Source of the DNA: Candidatus Methanoperedens sp.
GTDB lineage: Archaea; Halobacteriota; Methanosarcinia; Methanosarcinales; Methanoperedenaceae
NCBI GenBank assembly: GCA_028715885.1
Contig: JAQUQX010000016.1
Span: forward strand, 1 to 35,241
Length of the DNA: 35,241 nt
Reading direction: 5' to 3'
Positions 27,370-30,793 of this stretch are shown piece after piece. The translations under genes and the position numbers were made by a program. The notes under the pieces were generated by a model. That model searched no databases. It was not told the origin of the DNA and worked only from the letters and a program-made list of their open reading frames with translations. Each line of letters starts with the position of its first letter. Position 1 is the stretch's first letter.

Positions 27370-27443
27370 GAGATATGGTTTGGTTAAGGTAGTTAAAAAG
27401 ACTTTTGAAAATGTATTCATTCTCATGGCATAACCTTTTTATT

Positions 27444-27464
27444 GTATAACGTTATACGTATAAC
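27444..27464 (+). promoter_or_regulatory. Three-heptamer operator candidate of vapBC
   Basis: GTATAAC (27444-27450), its exact inverse GTTATAC (27451-27457) and GTATAAC again (27458-27464) lie end to end, finishing one base before the antitoxin ATG. The first two form a perfect 14-base palindrome. This is the arrangement expected for an AbrB-type antitoxin that represses its own operon. Confidence 0.6.
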
Positions 27465-27465
27465 T

Positions 27466-27702
27466 ATGACCGAAGTAAAAGTCCACGACAAATACCTGAT
27501 AGTAATCCCGAAAGACGTGCGCGATGCCCTGGGAATAAAAATCGGGGAGACAGTAGAGTTTGTAATTGAGAAGGGCAAGGCTGTGCTGTATCCTCACCGT
27601 GGGAACGCAGCATCTGTAGGGCGTGTTCATGGAATCATCAGGCATAAAGGCACGATAGACGAAGGCATAGAAGAAGGGTATGCGGTTATGGGAGCAGAAT
27701 GA
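27466..27702 (+). CDS. vapB: AbrB/SpoVT-type antitoxin (VapB-like)
   Basis: This is a 78-residue swapped-hairpin AbrB DNA-binding protein. The N-terminal domain (MTEVKVHDKYLIVIPKDVRD, then IKIGETVEFVIEKGKAVLYP) binds DNA. The acidic C-terminal tail (DEGIEEGYAVMGAE) is where such antitoxins wrap their toxin. The start ATG 27466 directly follows the heptamer operator. The longer open frame from TTG 27442 would translate through the operator and is unlikely. Its last four bases overlap the toxin ATG (ATGA). Confidence 0.88.
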   Translation: MTEVKVHDKYLIVIPKDVRDALGIKIGETVEFVIEKGKAVLYPHRGNAASVGRVHGIIRHKGTIDEGIEEGYAVMGAE

Positions 27703-28109
27703 GGTACGTTGATTCCAACATATTCATCAGCAACCTTATCGGGGATAATCGGCTGGGCGAAGCTGCTAAGAAGTACCTCGAAGCCGTTGCTTCCGGAAAA
27801 GAGGCGGCGGTAACCTCTGTCCACACCATGATTGAGATATATGCTTTCCTGAAAGGCAAAAAACTATCAGAACAGAAAATAGCAGGAATATTGAATGATA
27901 TCATGTCGCACGGCGTAACCCTGCTGCCTTTTGAGCCGATATTTTTCAAGGAGGCGCTTACTATGACAAAAAAAGGCTGGAAACTGGGCGACGCTATCCA
28001 TTATGCGACGATGATGAAACATAACATAAAAGAGATTGTTACCGACGATGCTCACTTTGACGGCTTAAAAAATATAGAGAGGATAGATATCCTCAAAACC
28101 AGTTTTTAA
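27699..28109 (+). CDS. vapC: PIN-domain toxin (VapC-like)
   Basis: This is a 136-residue PIN-fold ribonuclease. The metal-binding acidic residues are Asp5 (YVDSNIFI), Glu46 (MIEIYAFL), Asp98 (LGDAIHYATM) and Asp116/117 (VTDDAHFD), a complete VapC set. VapC toxins cut tRNA or rRNA and are neutralised by the antitoxin encoded immediately upstream. The start overlaps the antitoxin stop by four bases, so production is coupled. A small membrane protein gene converges on its 3' end. Confidence 0.9.
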   Translation: MRYVDSNIFISNLIGDNRLGEAAKKYLEAVASGKEAAVTSVHTMIEIYAFLKGKKLSEQKIAGILNDIMSHGVTLLPFEPIFFKEALTMTKKGWKLGDAIHYATMMKHNIKEIVTDDAHFDGLKNIERIDILKTSF

Positions 28110-28112
28110 AAA

Positions 28113-28262
28113 TTATTTCTTATCAATCAAATAGCTGGCGGCAGCAATCACAATCAAAGATACCACGCTTATCGGTATACTTTTACCAACCGCTCCTTCC
28201 ACGCCGCCTATTATTCCAACTGCATACAGTATATAACCTGCCATTTTTGCTGTACAGCACAT
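28113..28262 (-). CDS. Small membrane protein (49 residues), unknown
   Basis: This short gene reads MCCTAKMAGYILYAVGI and then IIGGVEGAVGKSIP, a second hydrophobic run SVVSLIVIAAASYLI and DKK. Two hydrophobic segments are separated by a Gly-rich turn with one Glu and one Lys, so a two-helix hairpin in the membrane is likely. AGGTGAT on the minus strand sits three bases ahead of the ATG, a strong ribosome binding site that supports translation. The gene ends four bases from the vapC stop and starts 140 bases from the divergent radical SAM unit. I do not recognise a family. The short length means its reality rests on the ribosome binding site and clean amino-acid composition. Confidence 0.62.
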   Translation of the reverse strand: MCCTAKMAGYILYAVGIIGGVEGAVGKSIPISVVSLIVIAAASYLIDKK

Positions 28263-28402
28263 AATATCACCTGATTTGTCATGTTTATTATAACATTTAT
28301 ACCTTTCTTTTAGCCAATTTCAATCTCGAAGCTGTTTTTCACGCCGCAGGACGAATAATTTAAAAACATGTAAACTAATAGTTTGATTATCAAGTGATTT
28401 CA

Positions 28403-28567
28403 GTGGTAAAAAAAGAAACTAATCCCTATGTAACCCTCATCTGCACCCACTGCGAATTCTTCAAGGAAGACGACATCGAGCTAGAATGTGCGGCATTCAA
28501 GGTACTGAAAGAAATGCTCAATAAAGGCAGGATTACACAGGAAGAAATAAAAGATGCCTTCAAATGA
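28403..28567 (+). CDS. Small three-cysteine protein coupled to the radical SAM gene
   Basis: This 54-residue protein starts VKKETNPYVTLICTHC and has Cys14, Cys17 and Cys29 in a Cys-x2-Cys...Cys layout, then a helical, charged C-terminus (AAFKVLKEMLNKGRITQEE, then IKDAFK). The GTG at 28403 has AAGTGAT just upstream; an in-frame GTG at 28394 is the alternative and would be near-leaderless after the TATA-like AATTTAAAAACA (28357-28368). The last 14 bases overlap the radical SAM start. Possible roles are a peptide substrate (RiPP-like precursor), a small metal-binding partner or a regulator. No leader/core cleavage signal is obvious. I do not recognise a family. Confidence 0.62.
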   Translation: MVKKETNPYVTLICTHCEFFKEDDIELECAAFKVLKEMLNKGRITQEEIKDAFK

Positions 28568-29735
28568 ATTGCCTGTTCTGGCGCAGGGTTATGTCCTGAG
28601 GAAACTTGAGGCGCCTTATGTCTATAACATCCCCGAAGACCAGTTGTATGAACTGGATGACGAGGCGTTTGGATTCTTAAAAAAATGCAACGGGAGAAAT
28701 CCCCTGGCAAAACTGCTTGAAAATGCCGGAATGGACAGCCGGGAATTCCTTGAATACCTGTTAAACGAGGGTATAATCAGTATTCAGAAAGGAGCGAGGA
28801 AAATAAAAGTGAGGGAATCACCCATCCCATCCCTCCGGTATCTTCTTCTGAATATCACTGACAAATGCAATCTTGCATGCAGGCACTGCTATCTTGGAAG
28901 CCCGGGCAATACTAACATTGACCTTCACGTTTTTCAAAAGGCGGTTTCACAGTTTGAAGACATGGGAGGGCTGAAACTCATGGTCTCAGGGGGAGAACCC
29001 CTTCTTCATCCTGAATTCCGGGCTCTTATGGAAATTCTCCCCTCCTATGAACTCAGGGTTGTGCTTCTGTCCAACGGGACGTTAATCGATAAGAAAGCGG
29101 CGAAAAAACTCTCGTGTTTCGTACATGAGGTACAGGTGAGCATTGACGGCATCAACTCGCATGACCTGCTGCGCGGGAAAGGTTCTTTTGACAAAGCAAT
29201 GCATGGGATTTCCAATCTTATAGATGCCGGGGTACCGGTTTCAATCGCCACAATGGTACACAAATACAATGCGGAGGAATTCGATGGGATGCAAAAGCTT
29301 TTCTCTGACCTTGAAGTGGCTTCCTGGAGCGTGGATGTACCCTGTGTGACTGGAGAGCTTGCTGGAAATAAGGATTTTATCCTTAATATGAAAGATGCGG
29401 CGCTGTTATTGAAATACGGCTCCGGCGCCGGAGGACATGAAAGCTCAGGCGATTACACATGCGGCTCTCACCTGTGTGCCGTATCACCGGATGGTACGGT
29501 CAGCAAATGCGGGTTTTTTGCTGGTGAACCGGTCGGGGATGCCGCAGATTTGCGATCTGCATGGGCGGAAATTTGTAAAAAATATCTGTGGACTCTTGAT
29601 AAACTTGATTGCCGTGATTGCAAAGTACTACACGATTGCAGGGGAGGATGCAGGTTCAGGGCAAGACAATACAAAGGGATTTTCGCACCCGACCCTGTTT
29701 TATGCCATGTCAATGGCGTTACGGAATTCCTATGA
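28554..29735 (+). CDS. Radical SAM/SPASM protein with PqqD-like N-terminal domain
   Basis: This 393-residue enzyme has three parts. Residues 1-95 resemble a PqqD-like/RRE winged helix (YNIPEDQLYELDDEAFGFLK, then EFLEYLLNEGIIS), the module that binds precursor peptides in RiPP maturases. The radical SAM core holds Cys105-x3-Cys109-x2-Cys112 (CNLACRHC), with VSGGEPLLHPEF and LSNGTLI. The SPASM region carries Cys303, Cys308, Cys319, Cys353, Cys356, Cys362, Cys366 and Cys384, enough for two auxiliary Fe-S clusters. Such enzymes modify peptides (for example PqqE, mycofactocin MftC) or cofactors. The gene overlaps the preceding small-protein gene by 14 bases and the convergent hypothetical gene by six. 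The substrate is unknown; the neighbour is the natural candidate. Confidence 0.87.
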   Translation: MPSNELPVLAQGYVLRKLEAPYVYNIPEDQLYELDDEAFGFLKKCNGRNPLAKLLENAGMDSREFLEYLLNEGIISIQKGARKIKVRESPIPSLRYLLLNITDKCNLACRHCYLGSPGNTNIDLHVFQKAVSQFEDMGGLKLMVSGGEPLLHPEFRALMEILPSYELRVVLLSNGTLIDKKAAKKLSCFVHEVQVSIDGINSHDLLRGKGSFDKAMHGISNLIDAGVPVSIATMVHKYNAEEFDGMQKLFSDLEVASWSVDVPCVTGELAGNKDFILNMKDAALLLKYGSGAGGHESSGDYTCGSHLCAVSPDGTVSKCGFFAGEPVGDAADLRSAWAEICKKYLWTLDKLDCRDCKVLHDCRGGCRFRARQYKGIFAPDPVLCHVNGVTEFL

Positions 29736-30338
29736 TACCTTGGGAAGCGGTACTTCAGCCTCAGGAAACAACTTTTTGGTTTTCATGAACTCGCGCGCCT
29801 TCTTAATCGCAGTTGAATAGACAAACATCCATCCTTCATTAATGAAGATAGTCCCATCCCGGATGGTTTGTTTGTCCAGCGTTCCGACCCCGAACTCCAG
29901 AAGCAACTGGATAGTAGCCACACATGCGGCGGAATATTCATCCCTGTCCTTTGATTCGGTTGTAATATCATGAAGCAGCATTTTAAAAAGGCTTCTGAAT
30001 TTATTGGAGGGTATGTACTGTTTATCCCCGGTTTTTAAAAGAGCGTTGATTTCAATAAGGTCGCTTATCAGTTTGTTGATCTTGCTTTCACTCCAGTGTT
30101 CTGTAGGGGTATCCGTTGTTTCATACGCCGCCCATACATCACGCAGGATTTCTTCTATTTCGTCCTTATTTTCAATCCTTCTTATAGCATACTCGGATGA
30201 TTTTAATTCAGGTATGGTGGATATGTAAAGCCTCAAAAGATTCCTGAGTTTCTCACCGTCATTCCCTTCAACGATTTTCACTTTTTTAAGAATCTCGTAT
30301 TCAAGGTCGCTCAGGGTTACTGTCAAATCTTTTGGCAT
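29730..30338 (-). CDS. Hypothetical protein with RHH-like N-terminus
   Basis: This is a 202-residue soluble protein. The start (MPKDLTVTLSDLEYEILKKV, then GEKLRNLLRLYI) looks like a ribbon-helix-helix DNA-binding module: a short strand followed by two helices. The rest is mostly helical and charged (DIEEILRDVWAAYETTDTPT-like and LISDLIEINALLKTG), ending in PLPKVS. I do not recognise the C-terminal part. It converges on the radical SAM gene with a six-base overlap. A further minus-strand gene (V4R-like) lies 77 bases upstream, and the two may be co-transcribed. A regulatory role is inference. Confidence 0.68.
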   Translation of the reverse strand: MPKDLTVTLSDLEYEILKKVKIVEGNDGEKLRNLLRLYISTIPELKSSEYAIRRIENKDEIEEILRDVWAAYETTDTPTEHWSESKINKLISDLIEINALLKTGDKQYIPSNKFRSLFKMLLHDITTESKDRDEYSAACVATIQLLLEFGVGTLDKQTIRDGTIFINEGWMFVYSTAIKKAREFMKTKKLFPEAEVPLPKVS

Positions 30339-30415: not shown

Positions 30416-30793
30416 TCATTCAATCAGCTCCGCAACGAAAATACACTGGCTTCCCCCCTCAAGTATGCATTCGCCGCCTTTTTTGCAATAATACCGGGTA
30501 TCGATATGTTTTCGCGCCAATCCTCCAAAGAATCCTCTTAATATATCGCACAACGTACATTTTTTACCTTTAAAAGGCAGGTTTTTTACATGAAATGTAA
30601 CTTTTTTTTCGGATATCTCAATTGATGTTATAATGTCTTCTTTTTCAAACTCTTTTTGAATATCCTCGATTTTCAAGGTTTTAATATCCATTGCCGCCTG
30701 CTCCCCGGCTTCGAACATCAACACGGAATTTGCTGCTTCTGTTACGATATTATTGCACACATCAATATAAGATTCCAAAAATTTCCTGAACAC
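30416..30793 (-). CDS. Small V4R-like protein
   Basis: This is a 125-residue protein. The C-terminal third (ARKHIDTRYYCKKGGECILE, GGSQCIFVAELIE) matches the end of V4R (4-vinyl-reductase) domains, where a Cys or His before a short loop and a second Cys-x-Phe motif bind small hydrophobic ligands, heme or metal. An internal TLCDILRGFFGGLARKH segment adds another Cys. The N-terminal helical part (MFRKFLESYIDVCNNIVTEA) is unfamiliar. V4R domains usually act as sensors fused to or next to regulators. The ORF ends 77 bases before the RHH-like gene on the same strand, compatible with a sensor-regulator pair, which is inference. Confidence 0.6.
   Translation of the reverse strand: MFRKFLESYIDVCNNIVTEAANSVLMFEAGEQAAMDIKTLKIEDIQKEFEKEDIITSIEISEKKVTFHVKNLPFKGKKCTLCDILRGFFGGLARKHIDTRYYCKKGGECILEGGSQCIFVAELIE

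Follow-up and report, generated by a model that had tools for sequence, protein, structure and literature searches.

A gene for a 54-residue protein with three cysteines overlaps the start of a radical SAM/SPASM enzyme gene in Candidatus Methanoperedens sp., and we propose that the two genes form a dedicated maturation pair, in which the target of the enzyme is the cysteine core of a mini-protein that stays resident in the cell. We put the probability of this reading at roughly 0.6. Whatever the chemistry, it is very probable that the mini-protein serves the enzyme as target or as permanent partner. The proposal draws on the enzyme's best structural matches, which are RRE peptide maturases, on the co-occurrence of the two proteins in three phyla, on their strict adjacency in archaea, on natural fusions, and on a form of the small protein that follows the enzyme tree. 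It draws further on the lack of any other gene conserved beside the archaeal pair and on the precedent of QhpD and QhpC.

Results

The locus and its surroundings

The window, i.e., the whole stretch of 35,241 nucleotides that was analysed, carries the pair with the following features:

28403..28567, + strand: mini-protein gene (Cys14, Cys17, Cys29); from the ORF list and the sequence, kept in all full-length genus orthologues, pN/pS 0.22
28436..28501, + strand: mini-protein cysteine core, residues 12-33, LICTHCEFFKEDDIELECAAFK; presumed modification or metal site; 32-member alignment, pN/pS about 0.10
28502..28564, + strand: C-terminal helical hairpin of the mini-protein, residues 34-54; possible recognition element; AlphaFold pLDDT 84-93, SHOCT-like below threshold
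28554..28567, + strand: overlap of the two genes, 14 bases, from the sequence
28554..29735, + strand: radical SAM/SPASM enzyme, 393 aa; Pfam Radical_SAM E 2.4e-21, AlphaFold pLDDT 93 and pTM 0.91
28572..28784, + strand: RRE/PqqD-like N-terminal domain, residues 7-77; model secondary structure, Foldseek matches to SuiB, SkfB and CteB, family HMM through the CteB RRE
28866..28889, + strand: CX3CX2C motif for the radical SAM [4Fe-4S] cluster, C105/C109/C112; invariant in 33 homologues
29460..29705, + strand: SPASM domain, canonical seven cysteines from C303 to C384; all seven invariant in 33 homologues

A preliminary description of this DNA had reported the overlapping three-cysteine gene, and the ORF list and the sequence bear it out. 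The gene starts with GTG; an alternative GTG at 28394 would extend the product to 57 residues. The overlap makes translational coupling of the mini-protein and the enzyme likely.

The ORFs upstream (27442-28109) and the two opposite-strand genes downstream are separate from the pair. The upstream ORFs, on the + strand, are an AbrB-like ORF (recognised by eye) and then a PIN-domain (VapC-type) gene, likely a toxin-antitoxin pair. Between the PIN gene and the mini-protein gene lies a 49-codon ORF with a hydrophobic stretch (28113-28262, − strand), possibly a small membrane protein. Downstream, a gene for a 202-residue protein with no assigned family (29730-30338, − strand) overlaps the end of the enzyme gene by six bases and occupies this position in several other Methanoperedens genomes as well, where the protein is 74-83% identical. 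It travels within the genus with a gene for a 125-residue V4R-like protein (30416-30793, − strand; below the Pfam cut-off). Elsewhere in the same genome there is a decayed C-terminal fragment of a second enzyme copy (contig C1, 126230-126490; positions 1731-1991 of locus L227 of genome G000), which is 61% identical over residues 315-388.

Architecture of the enzyme

The radical SAM core named in the preliminary description was confirmed by its match to Pfam PF04055 and by the invariance of C105, C109 and C112 in an alignment of 33 diverse archaeal and bacterial homologues. The SPASM region assigned there also stands, but its count of eight cysteines does not: the region has nine (303, 308, 319, 341, 353, 356, 362, 366 and 384). 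Seven of them are invariant across the same homologues with canonical spacing (C303-x10-G-x4-C319, C353-x2-C356-x5-C362-x3-C366, C384); C308 and C341 are not conserved.

The same description had supposed a PqqD-like fold within residues 1-95, and the confident AlphaFold model of the enzyme contains one. The first 80 residues form four short strands, three helices and one short strand, which is the RRE/PqqD topology. The top Foldseek matches of the model are SuiB with its peptide (5v1t; TM 0.67-0.71), SkfB and CteB, aligned at about 14-20% identity. PqqE is also a PDB match of the enzyme. Furthermore, at the sequence level, the family HMM aligns through the CteB RRE. The Pfam PqqD model, applied to sequence only, hardly detects the domain, matching 1 of 16 members of the enzyme family (E 0.019), and this counts against the maturation reading. 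Scans of the N-terminal region with Pfam and NCBIfam gave nothing above cut-off.

No NCBIfam maturase model came near its cut-off with the enzyme; the best score was about 100 bits, and the cut-offs of the 25 listed families lie between 231 and 850 bits. Identity with a named NCBIfam maturase (NirJ, mycofactocin, GeoRSP, SynChlorMet, ACGX, PapB, etc.) was therefore rejected, the scores falling below every cut-off.

Conservation of the mini-protein

Across 32 aligned family members, C14, C17, F19, E28 and C29 are invariant. In the one-module form of the protein (see below), D24 and E28 are near-invariant and the Glu28-Cys29 pair is invariant, and the most conserved part of the protein is the cysteine core, CxxC...EC. 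The mean pN/pS over 13 Methanoperedens small genes is 0.22, and over codons 12-33, the stretch of the three cysteines, it is about 0.10; by this codon-level measure, the core is under strong purifying selection. Within the genus, residues 12-33 are 88% identical, compared with 66% for the enzyme. The core is thus the most conserved part of the system, unlike a typical RiPP core peptide.

In the AlphaFold model, the C-terminal hairpin is well defined (pLDDT 84-93), and the cysteine part, modelled without ligand, has low confidence. SHOCT models match 12 of the 32 members (best E 0.00046), all below the gathering score, with the window's mini-protein at 16.1 bits against a gathering score of 24; by the Pfam criterion, a SHOCT domain in the C-terminal half was rejected. 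Pfam and NCBIfam scans of the mini-protein gave nothing above cut-off, and PDB searches by sequence and by fold returned no match. As judged by these scans, neither protein is covered by a curated family at its cut-off.

Co-occurrence in archaea and bacteria

The small gene overlaps or directly precedes the enzyme gene in every full-length orthologue of the genus, and this constant placement indicates that the pairing is more than chance. Two genomes of the genus (G010 and G020) carry neither gene. We then surveyed 393 genomes of the window's archaeal phylum, searching independently with the mini-protein and with the enzyme. The small gene was found in 24 of the 25 genomes with the enzyme; in the 25th, the enzyme gene runs off the end of its contig. 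None of the 393 genomes had the small protein without the enzyme. When tested from the mini-protein side, the enzyme was adjacent in 21 of 21 archaeal genomes. Matches occurred within the family of the window and, in the same order, in a single genome from a different family (G024); others were in family f9, which has Archaeoglobus and Geoglobus as its named relatives, and in two more families. The pair is absent from the sampled genomes of another family (f5) of the window's order. Hence the small gene stands beside orthologues in related genomes, a point on which the preliminary description had staked its reading, throughout the genus and far beyond it.

The enzyme is present in 68 of 198 sampled Nitrospirota genomes, 63 of which also have the small protein: 62 times as a tandem two-module protein and once as a one-module protein directly upstream of the enzyme (G454). 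Similarly, 34 of 326 Desulfobacterota genomes have the enzyme and 33 of these have the small protein, with 24 two-module proteins and 9 one-module proteins encoded directly upstream of the enzyme; the remaining enzyme copy (G688) is truncated at the edge of its contig. For the three phyla together, the small protein occurs in 120 of 127 genomes with the enzyme versus 9 of 790 without it. Fisher tests of the surveys gave p 1e-37 to 1e-43; these values are descriptive and ignore relatedness, the genomes not being independent.

The one-module form thus occurs in archaea and some bacteria and the tandem two-module form in bacteria, and the distribution of the two forms tracks the enzyme tree. In profile comparison, each half of the tandem protein matched the single module (E 2e-10 and 1e-9), from which it follows that the two-module protein is a duplication. 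The acidic residue preceding the third cysteine is not kept in this form, a second point against maturation.

Fusions and stand-alone modules

At least six Desulfobacterota genomes (loci L302, L303, L304, L306, L309 and L339) have one uninterrupted frame of 507-572 codons that encodes module 1, module 2, the RRE, the radical SAM core and the SPASM domain; a seventh fusion (G793) is indicated by equal open-frame lengths. These fusions are direct genetic evidence that the mini-protein and the enzyme act together. In a further sequence (Desulfobacterales CP070769.1; L300, 1501-3012), module 1 is followed by a TAA stop and module 2 is in frame with the enzyme, reflecting either an interrupted fusion or a sequencing error.

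The two-module protein was found without a detectable enzyme in seven Desulfobacterota and two Nitrospirota genomes, so the module can exist alone. Of the seven, at least five hold a diverged clade and one (G737) holds a broken fusion. The members of the diverged, stand-alone clade (L342, L345, L347, L348 and L349) lie in some cases beside an apparent RluA-type pseudouridine synthase gene.

Gene neighbourhoods

In archaea, no gene besides the pair itself is conserved around it, and no protease or transporter gene is conserved near the homologues in any lineage surveyed. One Nitrospirota lineage has the small gene at the head of, or inside, a run with a rubrerythrin-like gene and the genes for both subunits of a 2-oxoacid:ferredoxin oxidoreductase; three loci (L238, L242 and L243) have the same run with the enzyme 2-7 kb away. 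In another Nitrospirota lineage, the small gene follows cutA and the enzyme is elsewhere in the genome. The kor and cutA neighbourhoods are each a lineage-bound synteny block and are suggestive; we do not use them as functional proof. They argue nevertheless that the mini-protein may have a life outside the enzyme, and a small gene in a separate operon, with the enzyme elsewhere, is as expected of a product that is used elsewhere.

A cupin-like gene adjoins or is fused with the small gene in a few loci. In two ORFs (L231, 6099-6788; L232, 6381-7085), the two-module protein ends in a cupin-like domain, and rubrerythrin-like and 2-oxoacid:ferredoxin oxidoreductase genes lie downstream. Single neighbourhoods elsewhere are suggestive only: one Methanoperedens copy (L032) is followed by lipA and pyruvate dehydrogenase genes, two Archaeoglobaceae copies (L157 and L158) have a dihydrolipoamide-dehydrogenase-like gene next to them, and one copy (L166) lies beside ferredoxin:thioredoxin reductase and glutaredoxin genes.

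Discussion

Substrate or accessory subunit

Could the mini-protein be a part of the enzyme rather than its substrate? Its cysteines might hold an iron-sulfur cluster or a metal and feed electrons or position a substrate, the enzyme's real substrate being elsewhere. We regard this as possible but rather unlikely. The strict partnership and the single-chain fusions agree with it, as do the CxxC...C pattern, the low confidence of the cysteine part when modelled without a ligand, and the conservation of the whole mini-protein with no variable core. The fusions in fact fit both readings: a lasting fusion with the enzyme is odd for a substrate and suits an accessory domain equally, and cysteines in a CxxC...C arrangement could simply bind metal. 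The nine two-module genomes without a detectable enzyme likewise count against maturation; yet the diverged small protein that certain enzyme-less genomes retain also speaks against a subunit, as does the location of many Nitrospirota small genes apart from the enzyme, beside the 2-oxoacid:ferredoxin oxidoreductase or cutA genes. Moreover, the RRE architecture serves peptide substrates in solved relatives (PMC8172795).

Comparison with known maturation systems

The domain order and fold of the Methanoperedens enzyme are those of SuiB, CteB and SkfB, RiPP maturases in which an RRE precedes a radical SAM core and a SPASM or twitch domain. The substrates of these enzymes are short peptides with a leader and a core, whereas the Methanoperedens mini-protein is conserved over its whole length. 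It is improbable, then, that the mini-protein is a classical RiPP precursor whose cross-linked cysteine core is excised, to be exported as a bioactive peptide or to serve as a small redox cofactor once released. An RRE-type maturase next to a small cysteine gene is indeed the usual two-gene layout of such systems, and the pair shares with RRE maturases the conserved small gene beside the enzyme. On the other hand, it has neither a RiPP-type leader with a separable, variable core nor protease and exporter genes; the core does not diversify, the fusion partner is the enzyme itself, and the distribution is single-copy and housekeeping-like. Of the options raised in the preliminary description, a protein-modifying pair therefore fits better than a secreted RiPP. 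That the two genes are neighbours by chance or through general operon structure is scarcely credible: its only support is that the pair's surroundings in the window's genus are ordinary housekeeping genes, and co-occurrence over three phyla, unlinked cases included, together with natural fusions, refutes it.

The systems of PqqE, PqqD and PqqA and of mycofactocin resemble the Methanoperedens pair in having an RRE, a SPASM radical SAM enzyme and a conserved, single-copy small partner. They differ in that the Methanoperedens pair has its RRE fused in the enzyme and lacks peptidase or oxidase partner genes, and in that its small protein is larger, with the cysteines as its conserved feature. In PapB/freyrasin, other ranthipeptides and the Asp-Cys peptides of SSN clusters 59 and 115 (PMC9062424), a cysteine at or near an acidic residue is the likely site, comparable to Glu28-Cys29. 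The precursors of these peptides have short motifs that are often repeated, and lie in peptide gene clusters, whereas here there are one or two compact conserved modules.

Among functional precedents for a target that is a resident protein, the nearest is QhpD, which makes three Cys-to-Asp/Glu thioethers within the small protein QhpC (PMC7876137). QhpC is the gamma subunit of quinohemoprotein amine dehydrogenase, a small resident protein encoded in an operon shared with QhpD (PMC7876137, PMC8172795). The likeness drawn here is one of logic: QhpC carries a leader of 28 residues, undergoes cleavage by a protease and is exported, whereas the Methanoperedens pair has no protease or transporter, and none of the qhp operon partners (protease, transporter, flavoprotein) is conserved near the homologues.

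A model for the proposed maturation of the mini-protein

If the two genes are a maturation pair, the RRE of the enzyme would hold the mini-protein, perhaps through its C-terminal helical hairpin, and the radical SAM centre, together with the iron-sulfur clusters of the SPASM domain, would then act on the CxxC...EC core. The simplest chemistry would be a thioether, in which one or more cysteine sulfurs are joined to a carbon of a neighbouring residue. Candidate acceptors are D24 and E28, by analogy with the Asp and Glu of QhpC and PapB peptides. Neither cut nor exported, the product would remain cytoplasmic and work there as a small protein, probably with a redox- or metal-related function.

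More tentatively still, the pair may represent a two-component system, so far without a name, that anaerobic archaea and bacteria share. Its enzyme would permanently modify a cysteine-module protein and so convert it into an intracellular carrier, redox or metal, for central metabolism (in Nitrospirota, perhaps for 2-oxoacid:ferredoxin oxidoreductase), in trans or fused to the maturase. We consider this broader scheme unlikely.

Significance

The kinds of components are known. The searched family models and the papers found do not cover their pairing and its wide spread, the duplication of the module, its fusion with the enzyme, or the absence of export and cleavage machinery. We found no paper on the pair in Archaeoglobus, Methanoperedens or Nitrospirota in the open-access literature, a scope that leaves out most subscription papers, where an earlier description is possible.

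The RRE-type radical SAM maturases known so far mostly produce secreted peptides or cofactors, and their genes lie in scattered clusters. A single-copy machinery of this type across Methanoperedens, Archaeoglobaceae, Nitrospirota and Desulfobacterota, with a highly conserved partner and fusions, suggests a housekeeping protein modification. The pair gives a name to a small protein family that lies above no curated cut-off and provides a defined putative enzyme-substrate pair. It may also bring to light a carrier of electrons or metal that has so far stayed hidden in anaerobic methane and sulfur metabolism.
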